From an uncultured Desulfuromonadales bacterium (GTDB lineage: Bacteria > Desulfobacterota > Desulfuromonadia > Desulfuromonadales > Trichloromonadaceae): a DNA stretch of 46,576 nt. Position numbers and translations under genes: made by a program. The notes beneath the pieces were generated by a model. That model ran no database searches and was not told the origin of the DNA. It was given only the letters and a program-made list of their open reading frames with translations. The stretch's first letter is position 1; every line of letters begins with the position of its first letter. The stretch is taken from contig CALZIZ010000008.1 of assembly GCA_945787465.1 (NCBI GenBank), positions 1-46,576 on the forward strand. The letters are read 5' to 3'. Positions 17,686-28,736 of this stretch are shown here, piece by piece.

Positions 17686-20481
17686 TCAACCGGTATTGCG
17701 CAACCCCGCGGCAATGCCGTTGATTGTTGCAGCCAGCGCATAGTTGAGCTCGTCGGTCTCTTTGCCGCCGCGTTTTCTTCGTAACAGCTCGATCTGGATC
17801 AGACTCATCGGGTCGACGTAGGGGTTGCGCAAGCGCAGGGAGTTGGCGAGATTGGGGTTGGTCTGCAGCAGACGCTCCTGAGCGGTCACCTGGAGAATCA
17901 TGCGCCGGGTTCGACGGTATTCGTCGGCAAACATGTCAAAGACCCGATTGCGCAGACCCGGGTCGGGGACCAGTCCGGCATAACAGCGAGCCAGGGGGAG
18001 ATCGACCTTGGCGAGGGCCATTTCGACGTTTCGCACCATGTCGAAAAAAATCGGGAAGCGCCGCATCATGGTGCGCAGCAGCTGTTTTTCTGCCTCGCCT
18101 CTGGCGGCGAAATTTTCGAAGGCGGTCCCGACGCCGAACCAGGCCGGGATCAGCAGCCGGCTCTGAATCCAACCGAAGCCCCAAGGGATAGCCCGTAAAT
18201 CGTCGAGGCCCTGGTTCTGGCTGCGCCGCGCGGGGCGCGAGCCAATTTTGGCCAGCTCGAACTCGAGGACCGGCGTGCCCTGTTCGAAATAGGCAAGGAT
18301 GTCGGGATTGTCGGCGATCTTCTGCCGGTAGCAGGCCAGGGCTTCGTCGCTCATCTGCTCCATGGCCTCCTCCCAGGCTGGATCTGGGGTCGATTCGACC
18401 AAGCCTGTGCGGGTCAGGGCTTCGAGGGAGGCTGCGACCATCAACTCGAGGTTGCGCCGAGCCAGGGCAGGATCGGAATACTTGAAATTGATCATCTCCC
18501 CCTGCTCGGTGAGCTTGAACGAGCCACTAAACGCACCAGCCGGTTGGGCGATGAGCGCCCGGTGGGTCGGGCCACCGCCACGACCGACGGTACCGCCGCG
18601 CCCGTGAAACAGGCGCAGTTTGACACCGCAGTCGTCGGCAACTCGGTACAAAGCACGGTGGGTCTTGTAGATCTCCCAGGTGCTTGTGAGCATGCCGCCG
18701 TCCTTGTTCGAATCTGAGTAGCCGAGCATCACCTCCTGCCAGCGTCCCCAGGAGTCGAGGTAAGGGGCGTAATCGGCGCACGACCAGAGGGTGCCGCAGA
18801 TATCGGGGGCGTTGCGCAAATCCTCAATCGACTCGAACAGCGGCACTGGCATCAGGCCGGGATCGCCAAGGTCGCGGCGGCCAGCCACGGAGATGCCGCA
18901 AAGTTCCATGAGCCAGACCAGGGAGAGGATGTCCCGGACGGAGCTGGCGCCGCTGATGACATAGCTGCGGATCGCTTCGGGGGGAAAATCGGCCTTGAGA
19001 CGCCCCAGAGCCCTCAGTGTTTCGAGCAGTTCGGCGGTCTGCGCCGAAGGGGCCTGCGGCAGAGGATCGGCCGGGTTGGCTGCGTGACCGGCCCCTGCGG
19101 CCAGTTCGCTCACCGCCCGGGCATGGACCTTTGCGTGTTGGCGGATATCGAGGGTATGCAGGTGAAAGCCGAAGGTGTCGACCTTGCGCAGCAGCGGCTC
19201 CACCAGCCGCGAGGCGAGACGCTCGCCCCCCTGGGCGCGCAGGCTGCGGTTAAGAATGTCCAGGTCGGCGCGCAGCGCCGCGGCATCAGGGTAAGCTTCC
19301 GAATCGGCGGGGTCGAGCAGGCAACGGCGCAGCCGGTGCCTGACGATGCTCAGATAGCGCCGGTAGAGCTCGCCTTCAGGCAGGGTTTCGGCGGCGCGGG
19401 CCGCCTCGGGAAGCTCCTGGTCATAGCGCTTAAGCGTATCGGCCAGAGGTGCGTCAACCCCGACCCGGAAGGTTGAAGGCGTGAGCAGCTTGCGCAGCTT
19501 TTCAACCTCGGCGAGGTAGTCGGAGAGGATCAGTTCCCGCGCCTTCTGCAGAGCCTCGCGGGTGCTTTCGACGCTGACAAAGGGGTTGCCGTCGCGATCG
19601 CCGCCAATCCAGGAGCCGAAGCGCACCACCGTCGGCAACTCTCCCGGATCGAGCTCGACCCGGTAGATTTCGGCAAAGTCCCGGGCAATCTCCTCGTAAA
19701 GCGAAGCGGTAGGGGGGAGCAGAGAGGCCGTGTAGTGGTCGAGGCCCATAACGATTTCATCGCTCACCCTCGGCTTTTGCCGGCGCACCTCATCGGACTG
19801 CCACAGGCCGGTGATTTCTCCGAGGATCGCCTCCTGGCTCTCGAGGGCCTGAGCGCCCGGCAGCGGAAGCCGATCAAGTTTTTCCAACTCGCCTGCAATC
19901 CGCCGGCGCTTGAACAGCACCACCCGACGCGCCACCTCGGTGGGATGGGCGGTAAAGACCGGGGAGACTTCGACCTGCCGCAGCCACAGCATGGCCCCGG
20001 AGGCATCGATGCCGGCCTGGCGCATGCGCAGCAGGGTGGCTCGCAGCGATCCGGGCTTATCGGGGCTACCCGTAACCAGGTGAGCGCGGCTGCGCCGTTT
20101 GCGGTGGATGTTTTCGGCGAGGTTTGCCAGCTCGAAAAAGGTGGCGAAGGTCTTGGTGATCTGATAGGCCTCGGTGGTGCTTAAGCGGGCGATGATCTCC
20201 ATCGCCTCCTGCAGCAGCGTGCACTCCTCCGCGTCTTCCAGCGCGGCATCACCCCAGGCGTTCTCCATCTCGCGGTGGCGGATCGCAAGGAGCCGCAGCT
20301 TTTCTTCGACATCGAAGACCTCCTCCCCCGCCTGCTCCTTGATCACGGTGCCAAGCAGCTTGCCAAGGGAGCGGACGTCCCTGCGCAGCGGCAAATCCTT
20401 GACTACCGGGTCGGAAGTGATCAGTTCTTGAAGTCTTTCGGCCTGGTTTTTCGCTGTCCAGAACAGCTCCCCTTCGGACAT
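17686..20481 (-). CDS. ppc: Phosphoenolpyruvate carboxylase
   Basis: 931 residues, a normal bacterial length. Carboxylates PEP with bicarbonate to oxaloacetate. The catalytic His is His179 in VFTAHPTEVARR; the second signature is GYSDSNKDGGMLTSTWEIY and the glycine loop is FHGRGGTVGRGGGP. The C-terminus ends in TINGIAAGLRNTG, the conserved allosteric-site tail. GAAAGGAG precedes the ATG. It follows the GAPDH-like gene by 72 bases, which include a hairpin, and lies in the same direction as the ACL-like and fumarate reductase genes. In that setting it would supply oxaloacetate for a reductive C4 branch. Confidence 0.97.
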   Translation of the reverse strand: MSEGELFWTAKNQAERLQELITSDPVVKDLPLRRDVRSLGKLLGTVIKEQAGEEVFDVEEKLRLLAIRHREMENAWGDAALEDAEECTLLQEAMEIIARLSTTEAYQITKTFATFFELANLAENIHRKRRSRAHLVTGSPDKPGSLRATLLRMRQAGIDASGAMLWLRQVEVSPVFTAHPTEVARRVVLFKRRRIAGELEKLDRLPLPGAQALESQEAILGEITGLWQSDEVRRQKPRVSDEIVMGLDHYTASLLPPTASLYEEIARDFAEIYRVELDPGELPTVVRFGSWIGGDRDGNPFVSVESTREALQKARELILSDYLAEVEKLRKLLTPSTFRVGVDAPLADTLKRYDQELPEAARAAETLPEGELYRRYLSIVRHRLRRCLLDPADSEAYPDAAALRADLDILNRSLRAQGGERLASRLVEPLLRKVDTFGFHLHTLDIRQHAKVHARAVSELAAGAGHAANPADPLPQAPSAQTAELLETLRALGRLKADFPPEAIRSYVISGASSVRDILSLVWLMELCGISVAGRRDLGDPGLMPVPLFESIEDLRNAPDICGTLWSCADYAPYLDSWGRWQEVMLGYSDSNKDGGMLTSTWEIYKTHRALYRVADDCGVKLRLFHGRGGTVGRGGGPTHRALIAQPAGAFSGSFKLTEQGEMINFKYSDPALARRNLELMVAASLEALTRTGLVESTPDPAWEEAMEQMSDEALACYRQKIADNPDILAYFEQGTPVLEFELAKIGSRPARRSQNQGLDDLRAIPWGFGWIQSRLLIPAWFGVGTAFENFAARGEAEKQLLRTMMRRFPIFFDMVRNVEMALAKVDLPLARCYAGLVPDPGLRNRVFDMFADEYRRTRRMILQVTAQERLLQTNPNLANSLRLRNPYVDPMSLIQIELLRRKRGGKETDELNYALAATINGIAAGLRNTG

Positions 20482-20553: not shown

Positions 20554-21726
20554 TCAGTTGCCTGCCCCCGATACGGGATCAAAGACCCTGGGCGGTCCTT
20601 CGAGAAGCAGGTGGCGGATGGCCTCGATTACACTGCGGCAATAGCCCCGGGTGTTATGGACGTAGGCCTGAAGAATCAGTTCGCTGACCGGCGGGGCCGG
20701 TTCCGATCCGAGGTTGAAGGGATCGTCTGCAAAACGCAGAAAAACCGGTTGGGGAAGGACCACGGCAGCCGCATCACACTGCTCGAACCCCCGGCTGCCG
20801 TAAGGTCGGTCCGCAAGGCGCAGCACCTTGGGCAGCCGCGTCGCCGTGCGGCCCAGACTCGCCGCGATACGCGCTCCATCGAGCCGGCTGCCGTCTTCGC
20901 AGAGATAGCTGAAGAAAAACCGGCAGAGCTGATATCCGGGCGGCATGGTCAGGGTCCGCAGGGAGATGGTGTTGATGTTATTGCTCGAAGGGAACAGCCG
21001 GTTCATCGACAGCTCCACCTGGGAGAAACCGGGGCGTAGATTGTTGCGCGGGTCCTGCTCACGGGCCCGGATCGACCCCGTCCCGAGGCGGCCCGTGGGC
21101 GTATCGGGGTGGACGATGTCCACCTCCATGGCCCGGAAATCAAGAGTGCTCAGCTCTGCCTCTTCTGCCAGTTCGAGAAGGCCCCTCAGCTGCGCCTGCC
21201 AGCCGTTGGTCTGGCAGGACCCGAGCGCAAAAATCCGGTCGCCCCCCGCGGGCCGCGGCTTGACCGGCAAAAACCGCCCCGGCGCTCCGATCAGCCCGGG
21301 GTAAAACCCCGGAAGTGAGGTCGCCTCCGCGACGCCGACCACGTAGTCGGAAACACTCAGAAATCGCTCCAACAGTTCCCGGTTGTTGATATGGGTTTTG
21401 GCGGTGGCAACGATACAGACACCGAAGGGCCCGGGCAGCATCTCTAGGGGATAGCCCTGCATGTCGCCGAAAAAGACCGGCACCCGGTTTCCGCAGATCA
21501 CCAGGGAGCTTCCTTCAACGGCAACCTGGTCGAGCAGCCGGGGCTGGGCGAGCACGATCCGTGCACAGAGCCCGTCCATCGGCGTCAGTTCCGGATGGCT
21601 GGGGTCGGTGGCCACCGGATTGGTCAGCACCGCCCCGATCTTGAAACCGTCCTGTTGCGGCTGAAGCATCCCGAGCAGAATCGAACCGATTTCGGCGCCG
21701 CATCCGATAAGAAGAACTTGTTTCAT
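20554..21726 (-). CDS. GAPDH-like NAD(P)-dependent dehydrogenase, substrate unknown
   Basis: About 390 residues from the ATG at 21726; the frame runs 42 residues further upstream, but that part is repeat DNA. A Rossmann motif opens the protein (VLLIGCGAEIGSILLGML). GSCQTNGWQAQLRG at the domain boundary resembles the SCTTNC catalytic segment of glyceraldehyde-3-phosphate dehydrogenase, so an active-site Cys appears to be kept, though the second Cys is Gly. MEVDIVHPDTPTGRLGTGSI and NNINTISLRTLTMPPGY belong to the C-terminal catalytic fold. It is too divergent from glycolytic GAPDH to assume that substrate; acylating aldehyde or phosphorylating activity on another acid is possible. It lies between the ACL-like pair and ppc. 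Confidence 0.7.
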   Translation of the reverse strand: MKQVLLIGCGAEIGSILLGMLQPQQDGFKIGAVLTNPVATDPSHPELTPMDGLCARIVLAQPRLLDQVAVEGSSLVICGNRVPVFFGDMQGYPLEMLPGPFGVCIVATAKTHINNRELLERFLSVSDYVVGVAEATSLPGFYPGLIGAPGRFLPVKPRPAGGDRIFALGSCQTNGWQAQLRGLLELAEEAELSTLDFRAMEVDIVHPDTPTGRLGTGSIRAREQDPRNNLRPGFSQVELSMNRLFPSSNNINTISLRTLTMPPGYQLCRFFFSYLCEDGSRLDGARIAASLGRTATRLPKVLRLADRPYGSRGFEQCDAAAVVLPQPVFLRFADDPFNLGSEPAPPVSELILQAYVHNTRGYCRSVIEAIRHLLLEGPPRVFDPVSGAGN

Positions 21727-21754
21727 AACCCGCCTTTCATTTTCTTTAACTATC

Positions 21755-21981
21755 ACCATACAAGGCACCAAGACACCAAGAACAGCGATAAACTTTGTTG
21801 TCTGCCGTTCATGCTGAGCCTGTCGAAGCATCGGTTTACCAGACGCTTCCAAGGCCTTCGACAGGCTCAGGCCGAACGGACTGACGTTGGTAGGATGGGG
21901 CCTGCCCCATCACTGAAAGCACCATACAAGGCACCAAGAAAATCTCCGGTCAAGGGCCTTCGACAGGCTCAGGCCGAACGG
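21755..21981. repeat. Dispersed palindromic (REP-like) repeats between aclA-like and GAPDH-like genes
   Basis: Three copies of a ~25-base element: one read as CTGAGCCTGTCGAAG (centre ~21820) and two in the opposite sense as CCTTCGACAGGCTCAGGCC (21855-21879 and 21957-21981). The first two form an inverted pair. A second repeat, ACCATACAAGGCACCAAGA, occurs at 21755-21773 and 21921-21939, so an ~160-base unit looks partly duplicated. The CTTCGACAGGCTCA core is a known type of dispersed repeat in many bacteria. This 285-base gap holds no gene. Confidence 0.8.
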
Positions 21982-22011: not shown

Positions 22012-24720
22012 TCAGGCCAGGTAGCGCAGCTCCGAGTTGGGGGTTCGGCAGTCCATGTCGGTGCCGCGACTGCGGTGGTCGGCGATCTCGGCGGCGATGC
22101 CCGGCATCCGGCCGTAGAGGAACAGGCGGAAAACCGCATCCTGCATCGCCTCGGGCGTCACCGTACCGGCCTGCAACTGCGGCCAGAAAAGCTCCAGGGA
22201 CAAGGTGGCGATCACTGCATCGACATTGACGCAAAAGACGTTTCGGGTGGCCCCGATGCTGTACAACTGTTCCACCAAGTGATGGTAGAACTCGAGAAAC
22301 GGATTGCTGATGCCCTGCTCCCGAAGCAGGGCACGCAGTCGTTCTTCACGGGGATCGATATTGACCGCCTGCCCGCGGAACACCGGGTGGTTGATGCAGG
22401 GGATCGGCGCGGGCGGATTGGCATCGCGGGCGCTGCGCTTGGCCGCCAGAAAATTGCGGGCGCTCTGCTCAGCCAGTTGCTGCAACAGTTGCTCCCGTTC
22501 CGCCTCTGGCATTTGGTAAGGATCATGGTCGGCAAACACTTCGAGCAGATAAGCGACGGCCTTGAAACCGTTGCCTCCGTGGGCCAGGCCGGTGTTGGTC
22601 ATGAAGCCGGCGTAGGCGGTTGCGATATCGTTACCGGCGCTGACACTCTCCTTGGCTCCCATGACGCTGAGAGGCCCCGGACCATTACTGACCGTGAGGT
22701 TAAGCAGGGCGTTGAGGCCAAACTGCTCTTCGCCACTCTTCGATGAGCGTCCGAACAGGCTGCGGAAGAGGGTTTCGACAAATCCCTGGTCAAGACCTGC
22801 TTCGGCCGTTTCCGACCATAGGGGGGTGACGGCGCCCGCACTTGCTACCAGACCCATCAAGGCCAGGTGAGTGCCGAGTTCCACCGCGGTCTGCCGCGGT
22901 ATGCGGCGACTCTTCAGGGCCGGCCAGGCCCAGCCGAGCAGTATCGCCGCGGTGAGCAGGGTCATCGGGTTGGTCTGTTCATCCTCGCTCTTCTCGCGAG
23001 CGCTGTATTGCTCGGCAAACCGGGTCAGCAACGTCTCTATCTCCAACGTCCTGATCAGGCCGGCGCAATGCTCGGCCGCGGCCCTATCCTGATCGGAGAC
23101 CGGACTTTTCGGCAGATCGCGGATCGCATCCAGAGCGTTCTGAAGAAGTTCCTCGTTCAGCTCTGCCTCTGGCCCACTGTCGTGAAAAAGGGTATCGATC
23201 AGGGTGTCGCTGATGGTGACTGTATCCCGGAACCAGTTGTTATTCCCGGCCAGCAGAACTTCTGCGGCCAGGTAGGCATTCGGGGTGCAGGTATTGGCCC
23301 GGCCTAGGGGGGAGACCGGGCTTTGCCGGCTGTCGGCCCGCCGGGTCAACCAGTTGAGCAATGCGTTGGCCAGGGGGGTGGCCTTCTCGTCCAGTTCATA
23401 GCGCAGCAGGGCAAACAGACAAGTTCCGGCAAACGGTTTTTCGATCAGCTCGAGGATCGGTGTGCCGTAGATTTCGGTCTGCTGGGTCGCCGCATCCACC
23501 CGGGTGGCGCTGGAGGCGTTGCGCATCGATTCCCGTACCAGGCAGGCGCCGACCTGCCGGTTGGCCTCTGCCAGCTGTCGGTCGTAGGGGGCAAGAGGCG
23601 TCACCGGCTGCAGGCGCAGGTGTTCGGGGAGAGCACCCCCTTGGTGATTGACCAGCCAGGGCTTGAGGGAGAGATCCCCTTCGGTTGGAAAGTCGGGCTC
23701 CTCGCCGAGCTGGGTCATGACCGCGCTGACTGCCGCCGGCAGATCCTGGATGGAGGTCACGCGCACGCCCCGCGCACCAACCTGAGGACTTGGGGCGGAA
23801 AACGCCGGAACCTCAAAATACCTGTCGAACCAGGCCTCCTTGGCGAAGGCATCGTCACTACCGCCGGCCATGGCCCCGGCATGACCGCAGGGACGTGCCA
23901 GGCGGCTTTTCCAGCGACCGGTCACGCAGGCGACCAGCGGCTTGCTGAACGGCAGCCGCCCCTCGGTGATCCAGTCAAGGGCCTGCTTCTCGTAATAACC
24001 TCCCGGTTCGATGTACACCACAACCGCCTTGGTGCGGGGATCGTTTTCGGCACAATAGAGAAATTCGGCCAGAGCGAAATGGATGTAGTGATCCTTGCCG
24101 CTGCTGAAGATGCTCGAAGTACCGAAACCGCAGGTTTTCAGGTATTCGGCCAGGGTAGTGCAAAAATTCCCGGAATTGCTGTAAATGGCGATGCTGCCGC
24201 GTTTCAGGCAGTCGGCCGGGTTGTCGCCACCGAGGGCGCCGCCAATGCGGACCTGGTCCCAGGAGTTACCGATGCCGAGGGAGTTGGCTCCGAGAACGTC
24301 GATTTTGCGATTTTGGGCCACGTATCGGATCAGCCGGGAATCGCGGACCGAAACCTTTTCGGTGACGATGAAGACCCGCTCCAGGCCCTGGTTGTGTACG
24401 CAGAGTTCTGATACGGCGTGGCTGACCGCAGCGGGGGGAAGATAGATGACACCGGTATCGAATTCGTGCCCGTTCTTCAGCACCTCGGTGACACTACCGT
24501 AAACTGGGATCGGCCCGGCCGACGTCTCCAGCTCTTCGCCGGTGCTGCCGAACTGGACCCCGGCGACTATGTTGCTGCCGCTGAAGGCGTGCGACATGGG
24601 GGTCACCTGGGCGCTCTCGGTGCCGAGAATGTTCATTACACAGACCCGTGAGCGACGGTTGGCCAGCTCGTGCAGGCTCTGGGCGCCGACAAAATATGGA
24701 AAAGGCGATGAGGTAGGCAT
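22012..24720 (-). CDS. ATP-citrate-lyase-like large subunit, enlarged and divergent
   Basis: 902 residues; classical AclA is about 600. Residues ~1-330 match the succinyl-CoA-synthetase alpha/CoA-ligase part, including GANSLGIGNSWDQVRIGGALGG and the phospho-His segment CGHAGAMAGGSDDAF. Residues ~350-600 form an extra helical stretch I cannot assign. Residues ~600-902 are the citrate-synthase-like domain (NGPGPLSVMGAKESVSAGND, TNTGLAHGGNG, FCVNVDAVIATL). By eye, the catalytic AHN His of ACL is replaced by Met (LSVMG), the preceding DHGP His is Asn, and GHR is NHP, while the Asp of NVD is retained. AAGGAG precedes the ATG. It follows the small subunit by 26 bases. Citrate cleavage is plausible from its partner but unproven. 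Confidence 0.82.
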   Translation of the reverse strand: MPTSSPFPYFVGAQSLHELANRRSRVCVMNILGTESAQVTPMSHAFSGSNIVAGVQFGSTGEELETSAGPIPVYGSVTEVLKNGHEFDTGVIYLPPAAVSHAVSELCVHNQGLERVFIVTEKVSVRDSRLIRYVAQNRKIDVLGANSLGIGNSWDQVRIGGALGGDNPADCLKRGSIAIYSNSGNFCTTLAEYLKTCGFGTSSIFSSGKDHYIHFALAEFLYCAENDPRTKAVVVYIEPGGYYEKQALDWITEGRLPFSKPLVACVTGRWKSRLARPCGHAGAMAGGSDDAFAKEAWFDRYFEVPAFSAPSPQVGARGVRVTSIQDLPAAVSAVMTQLGEEPDFPTEGDLSLKPWLVNHQGGALPEHLRLQPVTPLAPYDRQLAEANRQVGACLVRESMRNASSATRVDAATQQTEIYGTPILELIEKPFAGTCLFALLRYELDEKATPLANALLNWLTRRADSRQSPVSPLGRANTCTPNAYLAAEVLLAGNNNWFRDTVTISDTLIDTLFHDSGPEAELNEELLQNALDAIRDLPKSPVSDQDRAAAEHCAGLIRTLEIETLLTRFAEQYSAREKSEDEQTNPMTLLTAAILLGWAWPALKSRRIPRQTAVELGTHLALMGLVASAGAVTPLWSETAEAGLDQGFVETLFRSLFGRSSKSGEEQFGLNALLNLTVSNGPGPLSVMGAKESVSAGNDIATAYAGFMTNTGLAHGGNGFKAVAYLLEVFADHDPYQMPEAEREQLLQQLAEQSARNFLAAKRSARDANPPAPIPCINHPVFRGQAVNIDPREERLRALLREQGISNPFLEFYHHLVEQLYSIGATRNVFCVNVDAVIATLSLELFWPQLQAGTVTPEAMQDAVFRLFLYGRMPGIAAEIADHRSRGTDMDCRTPNSELRYLA

Positions 24721-24746: not shown

Positions 24747-26009
24747 TCAGGCAGTGCGTGCGGTTGCTTTAGCTTCGTTCGAGGCTTTCTCCAACCAACG
24801 GTCGAGTTCCAGAGCATAGTGGATGACGCTGACCATGCTGCTGTCAAAGCCGAAAAAGGAGTGAGGTATCTGCAGCCTATCGAGCGTATCGCGGGCGTAA
24901 GTCAATCCCTCGACCAGACGGGGGCCGCCCCGCCCGACCACCACATGGATCCGCGGGTTGAGGTCAATATGGTCGCGCAGAGCGTCAAAGATCCCCTTGA
25001 AGGTGTTGAAAATATTTGTATTGTTGGCACGCCCACCGATAACCAGCAGGACTTTTGCCTGATGAAGCCAGTGCCGCATGGTGATATCGGCAATCGCCTT
25101 CATTTTCTCAAAAGGGGGGTTGCCGCCGAAATCCGAGGAGAGAATGGCACGGTCGCCGAGGATTTCCGTGGTCACGCTGTTCGCACCGCCACCGAACATG
25201 AACGGCAGGATGCTCCCCTGAGGATTGATTTCGACCACATCGCTCTGTCCCTGGTGGGTGCGCAGAACGTTGATTTCCGCCTCGAAGCGGCTCAGCTCGG
25301 TGGAAAAAATTTCCTCGGGAAAACCGAGCCGGCGCCAGGCCGGGTTATCCAGGTCGAAGGCGGCCTTAATATCGCAGGCAACAGGTAGATAGCGCCCGTC
25401 TTGTCTGGTCATGCGGATCGGATTCAATTCCAGCACGGTCATGCCGTAGTTGTCGTAGAGCTGCCAGAGTTTTGGCAGGTGCTGCACCAGCGGGCTGATG
25501 TAGTGCGCCGGGCAGCCGAGTTCCCGCAGCGCATCGTGGACGTGGAACGCCTTGAGTCCGGTGGCCGGATTGAAGGTGATGATCTTTTTCCGCTCCGGGG
25601 GGAGCTCCTCGACGTCCACGCCGCCTTCGGCGGTCAGGGTCATGACTGGGCTGCGGAAGATGGTTGAGGCGCTGATATTGACATAAACCTCGACGTCCGA
25701 AGGGATAAACCCCTCAAAGGTCACGCCGTTGGCCTGCACCTGACGGTTCCCCTGCTCATGGATAGCGAAATAGAGCTCTTTTTTCGCAACCATCGCCTCG
25801 TAGGGGTTGTCGACAATCCGCACCAGTCCCGCTTTTCCCTTCTTGCCGATGCCACCGAGAAAGACCGGTTTGACGACGCACTTACCGCCGTGCCGCTGAA
25901 TCAGGCCACTGACCTCATCGAGGGAGGCGCTGGCTCGCAAGGTTTCGGCTACGGGAAAGTCGACCAGTCTGAGCAATTGGTTTCCGAATTTCATGCCGGT
26001 TATCTGCAT
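24747..26009 (-). CDS. ATP-citrate-lyase-like small subunit (ATP-grasp, citrate-binding)
   Basis: 420 residues, close to bacterial AclB (~400). The N-terminal ATP-grasp half includes CVVKPVFLGGIGKKGKAGLV. The C-terminal citrate-binding half has PFMFGGGANSVTTEILGD, VIGGRANNTNIFNTFKGI and VVVGRGGPRLVEGL; residues equivalent to human ACLY Asn346, Thr348 and Arg379 seem retained (Asn and Thr of NNT, Arg of RGGP; recalled from the known structure, aligned by eye). So the citrate/ATP activation step looks intact, in contrast to the changed lyase domain of its partner. GGGAGG precedes the ATG. It is transcribed ahead of the large subunit. Confidence 0.85.
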   Translation of the reverse strand: MQITGMKFGNQLLRLVDFPVAETLRASASLDEVSGLIQRHGGKCVVKPVFLGGIGKKGKAGLVRIVDNPYEAMVAKKELYFAIHEQGNRQVQANGVTFEGFIPSDVEVYVNISASTIFRSPVMTLTAEGGVDVEELPPERKKIITFNPATGLKAFHVHDALRELGCPAHYISPLVQHLPKLWQLYDNYGMTVLELNPIRMTRQDGRYLPVACDIKAAFDLDNPAWRRLGFPEEIFSTELSRFEAEINVLRTHQGQSDVVEINPQGSILPFMFGGGANSVTTEILGDRAILSSDFGGNPPFEKMKAIADITMRHWLHQAKVLLVIGGRANNTNIFNTFKGIFDALRDHIDLNPRIHVVVGRGGPRLVEGLTYARDTLDRLQIPHSFFGFDSSMVSVIHYALELDRWLEKASNEAKATARTA

Positions 26010-26273: not shown

Positions 26274-27869
26274 TCAGAGCTTATCGACGATAAACTCAGG
26301 GAATAACGTAGGTGATTTGGAAACATTGGAAATTCGTAGGGCCTTCAGACTGTCATAGTAACGATGAACATGATTCAGGGTGGCATTGCCCGGCTCATTG
26401 TGTTTCCTCTTGGCAGCAGCGATCCCGGCTCTTCTGCCGAAAACGAAGATATCCAGCAACGAATTGCCCATGGCGCGGTTTCTTCCGTGAATGCCGCCGG
26501 CGGCTTCGCCGGCAACAAAGAGATTCTGCACCGAAGATTCGCCTTTTTCATCGATGAGCACCCCGCCGTTTTGGTAATGCAGGGTGGGATAGATGAGCAG
26601 CGGGCTTTTGGTAACATCGATCTTGACCCGCATGAATTGTTTATAGAGGGAGGGAAACCGCTTTTTGAGAAAGCCTTTTTCCCGGGTCTCTTCCAGGACG
26701 GGAATATCAAGCCAGACCCCCACCCTACCTGATTGGGTTTTGACACCGTTGCCGATCTGACATTCCTGAATAATAGCGGAGGCCACCACATCACGGGTTT
26801 CCAGCTCGTTAACGAACCGCTCCCCGTGGACGTTGACCAGGTGGGCGCCAAGGCTGCGGATCGCTTCGGTAACCAGCACCCCGACCATATGATCGGGAAA
26901 CATCACCCCGGTCGGATGATATTGAAAGGAGTCGAGGCCCTCCATCCGGGCACCGGCTCGGTAGGCCAATACCACCGCGTCTCCGGTAGCCCCGAAATTG
27001 TTAGAAGTGGGAAACCCCTGGTTGTGAAGCCGACCGGCGCCTCCGGTAGCGAGAATCACCGCCTTGGCCTTGACCGCGAAAAAGCGTTTGCGGCCGAGGT
27101 CGAAAAGAATGGCCCCGTTGCACTCACCCGCCTCGTTCGTGGTCAATTCCACTGCTGGGGTGAATTCGGAGATTTCGATCCGGTCGCTCTTGCGCAGCTC
27201 GTCTTTGAGAACCTTCATGATGTTCAGGCCGGTATGGTCGCCGATAGAAAGGATTCGGGCCGAGGACAGCCCGCCGGCCTTCTTGGTCGCCAGATTGCCG
27301 CTCGCGTCCCGGTCGAAATTGACGCCGATATCGAGCAGCCATTTGACGATCCCGGGTCCGTCTTCGACCATGGTCTTGACCAGACTCCGTTTGCCGGCAA
27401 ACTGGCCGGCCAACATGGTGTCGGCGAAATGTTTGATGAGAGAGTCATTCTCCGCCACCGAAGCCTGCATCCCCCCCAGGGCCATTATGGTGTTAGAGTT
27501 GCCCAACCTCAGTTTGGTGGCCAGCAACACCCGGGCGCCGACGCTTTCGGCGAACAACGCCGCGGTAACCCCGGCCCCACCGCCGCCCAGGACCAGGACA
27601 TCGGTGGTGTATTCAGGAACCAGGTCGATCTTGGAATAATCCAGATCGCTGAACGCCTCTAGAAGGTCGGCAACCTCATGGGTTACCCGGTCGCCCTTGT
27701 TAGCTCCGATTCTGAGATTACGAAATGCCGAATCCTTGTAATCGGGGTGGTACCCTTTCAGCAGTTCGCTCTTTTCCTGATCGGAAAATTTTCCCAACGT
27801 CTGTTCTTTTCTTTTTTTCCGGGTGGCCGCCGCTTTCTCCAGAGGCTCGATCAGATATTCAGCATACAT
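26274..27869 (-). CDS. Fumarate reductase/succinate dehydrogenase-type flavoprotein
   Basis: 531 residues. The FAD Rossmann motif is VLVLGGGGAGVTAALFAE. Active-site segments of the SdhA/FrdA family are present: QYHPTGV, TEAIRSLGAHLVNVHGERFVNE (catalytic Arg region), TLHYQNGGV, and AGEAAGGIHGRNRAMGNSLLD. The segment that normally reads RSHT, where His binds FAD covalently, reads LGNSNTIMALGG; the His is Asn, as in non-covalent relatives. An extra ~85 basic and charged residues precede the FAD motif. The gene follows the iron-sulphur subunit by 12 bases and no membrane anchor gene is present, so the enzyme is probably soluble. Direction (fumarate reduction versus succinate oxidation) is inferred from the setting. 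GGAGG precedes the ATG. Confidence 0.85.
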   Translation of the reverse strand: MYAEYLIEPLEKAAATRKKRKEQTLGKFSDQEKSELLKGYHPDYKDSAFRNLRIGANKGDRVTHEVADLLEAFSDLDYSKIDLVPEYTTDVLVLGGGGAGVTAALFAESVGARVLLATKLRLGNSNTIMALGGMQASVAENDSLIKHFADTMLAGQFAGKRSLVKTMVEDGPGIVKWLLDIGVNFDRDASGNLATKKAGGLSSARILSIGDHTGLNIMKVLKDELRKSDRIEISEFTPAVELTTNEAGECNGAILFDLGRKRFFAVKAKAVILATGGAGRLHNQGFPTSNNFGATGDAVVLAYRAGARMEGLDSFQYHPTGVMFPDHMVGVLVTEAIRSLGAHLVNVHGERFVNELETRDVVASAIIQECQIGNGVKTQSGRVGVWLDIPVLEETREKGFLKKRFPSLYKQFMRVKIDVTKSPLLIYPTLHYQNGGVLIDEKGESSVQNLFVAGEAAGGIHGRNRAMGNSLLDIFVFGRRAGIAAAKRKHNEPGNATLNHVHRYYDSLKALRISNVSKSPTLFPEFIVDKL

Positions 27870-27881
27870 ACGATACCTCCA

Positions 27882-28556
27882 TTAACCTTCAACGGTCTTG
27901 CGACAGAAATCTCTCAGGGCCTCATCGCTCATGGTCAGGATTTTCCCAAACTCTTCATCATTCTTTAGAGATTCCACCTCTTTCAGCCTTTTTTGGAGAT
28001 TGGCAGGAATGGGGCGCTGTCTGGCGCAGGAGCGCTGGATATAGAGCCCGACAAACTGGGGTGCAATGCTTTTTGGACACCGGGAGGCACACAGCCCGCA
28101 CATGTGGCAGTCCATAACCCTCTCGGCGGCCGGGAAAAAATCTTCTTCCTTGGCCTTTTTCATGACCCCAGCCACATCAATCCATTCCGGACAGATATTG
28201 CAGGCTTTGCAATCGTTGCAGGAGTAGAGTTCCGGATACATTTCCGATAGCACCCCCAGAGGATCTTCCAGGCTCTTCATGTCGTATCGTGCAACCCGGG
28301 AGGGAAAATAGGGGAGCATGATCACATTCATTCCCTCCTCGACAACCACCTGGCAACCCAACCCGAACTTGACTCTCTGTGCCCCGGCTTCAAGAAAAGC
28401 CACGGTACAGGCGCCGCACAACCCAGAAAGACATCCGATTCCACGGTTGAGTTCATGACCGGTGTCCCAGAGGGCCTCGATAACAGTCAGCCCCTCGGGG
28501 ACCCTGATCTTTCTTCCTTCGAGTTCCATGGTGATCATCGTTTTCTGCTCTTTCAT
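27882..28556 (-). CDS. Fumarate reductase/succinate dehydrogenase-type iron-sulphur subunit
   Basis: 224 residues from the ATG at 28556 (a GTG two codons upstream is possible; GAGGG lies just before). The N-terminal plant-type [2Fe-2S] fold has Cys44, 49, 52 and 70 (frame numbering from the GTG) in GIGCLSGLCGACTV and FGLGC. Two further groups follow: CNDCKACNICP (115-124) and CHMCGLCASRCP (152-162), giving two cubane clusters. This is the SdhB/FrdB layout. The C-terminus has the PQFVGLYIQRSCARQ stretch but no CCG heterodisulphide-type domain, so it is not a TfrB. It is the promoter-proximal gene, ~180 bases from the operator at 28737. Confidence 0.86.
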   Translation of the reverse strand: MKEQKTMITMELEGRKIRVPEGLTVIEALWDTGHELNRGIGCLSGLCGACTVAFLEAGAQRVKFGLGCQVVVEEGMNVIMLPYFPSRVARYDMKSLEDPLGVLSEMYPELYSCNDCKACNICPEWIDVAGVMKKAKEEDFFPAAERVMDCHMCGLCASRCPKSIAPQFVGLYIQRSCARQRPIPANLQKRLKEVESLKNDEEFGKILTMSDEALRDFCRKTVEG

Positions 28557-28736
28557 AGCCACCCTCTTCGTTAGGCAGTCACAGCTCGCAGGGGTTTTGT
28601 CGGTAGATACGCGGTTAAGAGAATGCTTTTCCCGACCTATCCATTCAGGTTCATCCCGGCCACTTGATTACCGGTCTTACATTATAGGTTGCAAATTGAT
28701 TTTTTCTACTTTTAGAACATTACTCATGAATAGTAT

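Follow-up and report, generated by a model that had tools for sequence, protein, structure and literature searches.

Type II ATP-citrate lyase (ACL) is known from tubeworm symbionts, Thioflavicoccus and magnetotactic cocci, and in the published genomes that carry it tfrAB accompanies it as a marker for the reductive tricarboxylic acid cycle (accessible parts of PMC3522073, PMC6315080 and PMC6783814). The type II primers listed in the available part of PMC3522073 encode the peptides VAKEEWF and NGFEAIA, and the available text of PMC5459899 places Planctomycetes enzymes between the paired citryl-coenzyme A (citryl-CoA) synthetase and citryl-CoA lyase (CCS-CCL) and type II ACL. Here we analyze a stretch of 46,576 nucleotides (the window) from contig CALZIZ010000008.1 of an uncultured Desulfuromonadales bacterium, in which an open reading frame (ORF) at 22012–24720, minus strand, encodes a large subunit of 902 residues (aclA2). 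The initial annotation had treated this protein as an ACL-like subunit that was over-long and had lost active-site histidines. Judged by its sequence, it is a member of the already published type II ACL family. Together with the adjoining partner gene, aclB2, it very probably encodes a catalytically competent enzyme, in which the citrate-synthase-homology (CSH) half would use the residues of citrate synthase.

Both motifs targeted by the published primers are present, in order, in the window protein, as FAKEAWF (residues 292–298) and NGFKAVA (717–723), each identical to the primer peptide at five of seven positions. A scan of genome contigs gave 41 loci with a type II large subunit, and at every one of them the small subunit gene lies directly upstream. 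Full-length large subunits of 901–917 residues were obtained from 36 loci; the other five were omitted from the conservation counts (L047, L048, L050 and L053 are cut short in the locus and L049 has a broken frame). With the window protein, to which the relatives are 44–79 % identical, this makes 37 full-length proteins spanning ten phylum labels, those of the relatives including Thermodesulfobacteriota, Spirochaetota, Bacteroidota, Ignavibacteriota, Calditrichota, Nitrospirota, Planctomycetota and others. The alignments A4/A5 were built on 26 of these 37 rows, and conservation in the small subunit was counted over the window and 36 of the 41 loci. In a tree of the 37 members the window protein clusters with those of a Desulfuromonadales metagenome-assembled genome (MAG) and a Geoalkalibacter MAG, with support of 100/100 for the three. 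The enzyme was found in 7 of 277 genomes sampled from the class to which the window belongs, its own genome included. The NCBIfam citryl-CoA lyase model NF004869 matches the second domain of all 37 members and PF00285 (Citrate_synt) matches 30 of them at E up to 0.01; on residues 396–902 of the window protein the latter reaches 28.3 bits (cut-off 27), and the whole 902-residue protein is not listed at E up to 0.001.

Residues 1–341 (23698–24720; all codons of aclA2 are cited on the minus strand) form a half like the citryl-CoA synthetase small subunit and the alpha subunit of succinyl-CoA synthetase. In a sequence search of solved structures this half matched the citryl-CoA synthetase small subunit 6hxq with E 3.7e-37, and its predicted structure superposes on 6hxq_A with Z 35.7 and a root-mean-square deviation (rmsd) of 3.1 over 320 residues. 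The phospho-histidine of the GHAGA motif, H280 (23881–23883), is kept in 37 of 37 proteins, as the initial annotation had seen for the window protein. Glu121 of the same half is invariant across the family and, by counting along the human sequence, is the probable equivalent of E599 in human ACLY. The partner subunit, aclB2 (24747–26009, minus strand; 420 residues), matches the Citrate_bind (63 bits) and ATP-grasp_2 (56 bits) models. In human ACLY citrate is bound by N346, T348 and R379.

The second, putatively catalytic CSH domain comprises residues 633–902 (22015–22824), as delimited by profile alignments, NF004869 and PF00285. When the profile of the last 343 residues was searched, the top solved structure was citryl-CoA lyase 6hxp (E 1.5e-5), and the family aligned with it as LAHGG with SAHGG, NHPVF...DPRE with GHRYY...DPRT, and NIDA with NVDG. 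The citryl-CoA lyase search aligned SAHGG to PLHGG of citrate synthases and GHRYYKDFDPR to GHRVYKTYDPR. A profile built independently from nine bacterial citrate synthases (csI) gave the same alignment against A8 (score 50.2, E 2.8e-6), the best of 60 column shuffles scoring 21.0. H714 of LAHGG (22579–22581) thereby falls on the catalytic His of citrate synthase (PLHGG) and the His of citryl-CoA lyase (SAHGG), a position occupied by Phe935 in human ACLY. H778 of NHP (22387–22389) falls on the GHR histidine that citryl-CoA lyase, citrate synthase and ACLY (H975) have in common, and D834 of NVDA (22219–22221) on ACLY D1026 and the catalytic Asp of citrate synthase. Two arginines also find their counterparts, R791 of DPRE (22348–22350) in the DPR of citrate synthase and R871 of GRMPG (22108–22110) in ACLY R1065 and the GRxxG of citrate synthase. 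These five residues, as well as N679 and K690, are invariant in 37 of 37 members. H714, H778 and D834 are called triad positions after the catalytic triad of citrate synthase, as numbered in the pig enzyme. Since they stand at these positions and are invariant in the family, the active site is, on these alignments, not lost and of the citrate synthase/citryl-CoA lyase kind.

The residue changes that had raised the doubt are mostly real. By alignment, the His of DHG in human ACLY (H900) is replaced by N679 (22684–22686), an Asn in all 37 proteins, and the His of AHN (H908) by M687 (22660–22662). Column 687 has Lys in 32 of 37 members and Met or Leu in 5, the Met of the window being a local oddity, and the solved citryl-CoA lyase 6hxp likewise lacks the AHN His, having Ile there. 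The universal N679 and the Lys or Met/Leu at 687 are the oddities that remain. The DHG-type His of citrate synthase has an oxaloacetate-binding role. The Asp of NVD was rightly described as kept (D834), and at GHR, read as NHP, the Arg is indeed changed; the His, however, is present as H778. The further claim that the active-site histidines are lost does not stand, and the alarm was a false one, raised by comparing the active site with the wrong template: human ACLY has F935 where the family has H714. The intact catalytic histidines were placed by profile alignment and whole-fold superposition, not residue by residue in the model; such an alignment is what the initial annotation had named as refuting its reading. 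As residues invariant in 37 proteins of ten phylum labels are involved, neither these changes nor the extra segment is an accident of the window sequence.

The excess length, put at about 300 residues, is also real, at about 285 residues beyond the solved Chlorobium alpha chain (617 residues with any tag), and the extra middle segment of some 250 residues comes to about 245 (residues 396–640). By profile comparison this segment is a first copy of the CSH domain that has degenerated, with no new catalytic part; the copy is assigned to residues 396–632 (22825–23535). Aligned by hhalign, 396–640 and 633–902 match nearly end to end over 206 columns (probability 97.4, E 1.6e-11), and under other settings the two copies score 73.2; 20 column shuffles reached no more than 22.9, and the reversed profile gave 12.9. 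When the ligase half was compared as a control, it scored 10.4 with the second copy and 16.1 with citrate synthase. We call the first copy degenerate because Arg498, a gap and Thr587 stand in it opposite H714, H778 and D834. The order of the copies is that of citrate synthase, the first resembling its N-terminal half (score 31.7; maximum of 60 shuffles 19.1) and the second its C-terminal half. No match was obtained when the extra segment was compared by hhalign with a single human CSH sequence.

Structure prediction gives a similar picture. An AlphaFold2 model from the 37-row alignment had a predicted local distance difference test score (pLDDT) of 83.0 and a predicted TM-score (pTM) of 0.60 for the whole subunit. 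As the ligase half filled the Foldseek and VIA lists obtained at full length, residues 396–902 were folded separately (pLDDT 86.8, pTM 0.88). The resulting model superposes on 3hwk_A with Z 28.0 and rmsd 3.5 over 325 of 366 residues, on 3tqg_A with Z 27.9 and rmsd 3.1 over 323 of 360, and on 1a59 with Z 28.0 and rmsd 5.1 over 347 of 377. The ranges superposed on the first two, 1–493 and 5–494 of 507 model residues, amount to a whole-length fit on whole citrate synthase subunits. All 50 matches listed for this model are citrate or methylcitrate synthases, and their tied Z values mean that fold comparison does not distinguish between the two. No ACL or citryl-CoA lyase chain is among the 50, an absence that we do not count as evidence; in Foldseek citryl-CoA lyase 6hxp appeared at rank 33. 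With the full model, VIA aligned the Chlorobium and Methanothrix alpha chains to residues 17–632 and 13–633, that is, onto the first copy.

The distribution of the enzyme bears on its physiological role. In a sample of 39 genomes from the Desulfobacter vibrioformis family, whose completeness is not stated, six have the type II enzyme. None of the six has an intact separate citrate synthase (three had no match, two a match only through the type II gene and one a remnant), and of the 33 genomes without the enzyme, 32 have citrate synthase and one gave no match. A one-sided Fisher test of this exclusion, not corrected for kinship, gave 2.1e-6. The pattern fits a type II enzyme that stands in for citrate synthase in these genomes. 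Two titles in the reference list of PMC12137691 concern this genus: that of Moller et al. 1987 links ATP-citrate lyase to the oxidation of acetate by D. postgatei, and that of Schauder et al. 1987 reports enzymes of the reductive citric acid cycle from D. hydrogenophilus. Cleavage of citrate has also been detected in Magnetococcus MC-1, which carries no ACL genes besides the postulated type II ones (PMC6783814, accessible part). The Desulfobacter pattern and these published activities together fit a citrate enzyme that runs both ways.

The citrate synthase remnant lies in genome G330, a type II ACL carrier, at C1:3021914–3022243; it covers PF00285 positions 251–357 (107 positions, 104.6 bits) in a frame of 128 residues, and looks as if citrate synthase had been lost after the type II enzyme took over. 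For 21 of the 41 loci the genome was also searched for citrate synthase, with a strong match in 18 and none strong in G284, G285 and G295. In G284, a SAR324 genome, a pair of adjoining ORFs (about 320 and 360 residues; locus L081, C18:79900-82400) matches Citrate_synt weakly (49.7 bits with neighbours), and the one that was read has no HGG (GHAYGAY).

By its chemistry, then, the window enzyme is most likely an ordinary reversible ATP-citrate lyase with a citrate-synthase-like architecture. H280 would be phosphorylated by ATP and hand the phosphate to citrate bound by the small subunit, and CoA would yield citryl-CoA in the citryl-CoA synthetase half. Citryl-CoA would be split, or in the reverse direction formed, in the citrate-synthase-like half by H714, H778 and D834. 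The first copy and the catalytic second copy would rebuild the full citrate synthase subunit fold, the first probably filling the structural place taken by a second identical chain in ordinary ACL or citryl-CoA lyase. We infer the order of these reactions, citrate as the substrate, the ability to run in reverse and the part that the first copy plays in the structure.

Several observations weigh against this assignment. The DHG His is replaced by N679 in every member. In human ACLY that residue, H900, is placed near the CoA sulfur, and R976, which binds CoA, corresponds to P779 here (PMC10115795, available part). The triad has been placed at the level of profiles and of the whole fold. In Desulfobacter the association is clustered on the phylogeny, and a single event may account for it. 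The window genome has a citrate synthase of its own (316.5 bits), so that the replacement argument does not apply to it; in this genome, as in the 18 other carriers with a strong match, the enzyme could run in either direction. In the literature searched, as far as its accessible text goes, no activity was found for the window protein or for any purified type II enzyme. Finally, a cryo-electron microscopy study argues, in its available part, for an allosteric and against a catalytic role of the human ACLY CSH domain (PMC10115795), and retained CSH residues therefore need not place the cleavage in that domain.

This last point leads to the alternative that survives best, in which citryl-CoA is made and cleaved wholly in the ligase half and both CSH copies are structural or allosteric, as in model 2 for human ACLY. 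It would accommodate the invariant Glu121 and also the finding, in the available text of PMC10115795, that the D1026A variant of human ACLY still forms citryl-CoA from the products in the ASH domain. A conserved citrate synthase triad, with a His that is missing from ACLY, is however hard to explain in a structural domain. Moreover, a stand-alone citryl-CoA lyase with the same residues, that of Hydrogenobacter, is catalytic. We regard a reaction confined to the ligase half as improbable.

Very unlikely, in our view, is the proposal of the initial annotation that the CSH half has lost catalysis, acts on another acid such as methylcitrate or citramalate, or has a new layout. The replacement of the residues equivalent to ACLY H900 and H908, with N679 universal, would favor it, as would the fold comparison, in which methylcitrate synthases tie with citrate synthases, and a synthetase half joined to a CSH half unlike the human layout was rightly perceived. 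Lost or altered catalysis is nevertheless unsupported: the triad and both arginines R791 and R871 are invariant, and the AHN His is dispensed with in the solved citryl-CoA lyase as well. Nothing points to another acid; the partner matches a citrate-binding family model, and in the Desulfobacter family the enzyme replaces citrate synthase. That the extra segment represents the insertion of an unrelated regulatory domain, helical by coincidence, is scarcely credible: Pfam names nothing within it, and a profile of residues 340–575 alone, a cut too short, gave only chance matches among PDB sequences, but with the right cut of 396–640, taken from the predicted model and hhalign, the match to the second copy, the score against the N-terminal half of citrate synthase and the whole-length superposition all speak against such an insertion.

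A Shine-Dalgarno-like AAGGAG precedes the ATG of aclA2, and 26 bases separate this start from the upstream aclB2. Upstream of the pair, and outside the enzyme itself, Pfam and NCBIfam identify tfrA/tfrB-like fumarate reductase genes (26274–28562, minus strand); the TfrB-like iron-sulfur protein (27882–28562, minus strand) has 226 residues against a length of 488 for the NCBIfam TfrB model, and thus the C-terminal part of TfrB is absent. Downstream follow an ORF at 20554–21852, a phosphoenolpyruvate carboxylase gene (17686–20481) and, further on, a nitrate reductase cluster. The tfrAB and phosphoenolpyruvate carboxylase neighbors point, short of proof, to a reductive or anaplerotic setting. The ORF at 20554–21852 (minus strand) has 432 codons, or 390 from a likely start at about 21726, and searches of Pfam, NCBIfam and PDB sequences gave no matches to it. 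It contains a stretch, SCQTN, that we take to resemble the active-site motif of glyceraldehyde-3-phosphate dehydrogenase, and a 72 % identical copy lies beside aclA2 in the Geoalkalibacter MAG (L016), one of the 41 loci. Just downstream of aclA2 an exact direct repeat, CCTTCGACAGGCTCAGGCCGAACG, occurs at 21855–21878 and 21957–21980 of the plus strand, where none is expected by chance; presumably it resembles an element of the REP type.

The duplicated layout bears on the origin of citrate synthase. According to the accessible text of PMC9871338 and PMC9560492, citrate synthase is structurally related to the citryl-CoA lyase module, and the condensation reaction is thought to derive from citrate cleavage. 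Could type II ACL then have kept the architecture intermediate between citryl-CoA lyase and citrate synthase, as a surviving relative of the enzyme from which citrate synthase directly descends, and with its coupling to citryl-CoA synthetase intact? We consider this possible, although rather doubtful. If one duplication was shared, a decaying first copy beside a catalytic second one would show citrate synthase before its N-terminal half eroded beyond recognition; in citrate synthase the profiles of the two halves do not match (score 16.7), whereas in type II ACL those of the two copies do (82.2). The first copy scores 31.1 against the N-terminal half of citrate synthase versus 17.3 against the C-terminal half. 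This match lies in the beta-hairpin or 'YRGYPI' region, where it is expected of any N-terminal copy, and the duplication may have been either shared or independent.

How does the window enzyme compare with known systems? It resembles published type II ACL in having a small ATP-grasp/citrate-binding gene followed by the large-subunit gene, tfrAB nearby and both primer motifs (VAKEEWF and NGFEAIA). No difference from it was found, and its descriptions, in their available parts, mention neither the duplication nor the citrate-synthase-like layout, just as no description of a tandem duplication in type II ACL was found in the accessible text of the literature searched. Classical ACL (Chlorobium AclBA 6hxj and human ACLY) shares the ligase half, the phospho-His and the positions of H975, D1026, R986 and R1065, but has one CSH domain, in a large subunit of about 610 residues, in contrast to two tandem copies in the 902 residues of the window protein; human ACLY further differs in having F935 at H714 and the DHG and AHN histidines H900 and H908 in place of N679 and M687. 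Citryl-CoA synthetase and lyase (6hxq and 6hxp) are the best sequence matches of the ligase half and the second domain, and agree at the HGG, GH and NVD positions; unlike the window enzyme, they are separate proteins with a single lyase domain, and the DHG His is kept in 6hxp. Citrate synthase (3tqg, 1ixe, 3hwk) matches residues 396–902 with both halves of its subunit fold and at the His-His-Asp positions; it is about 140 residues shorter, lacks the CoA-ligase half and keeps the DHG-type His where the window protein has N679. Type II ACL, key for CO2 fixation in tubeworm symbionts and probably for acetate oxidation in Desulfobacter, thus gains a concrete structural model, and its tandem CSH layout offers a testable middle form for the published idea that citrate synthase arose from the citryl-CoA lyase module.

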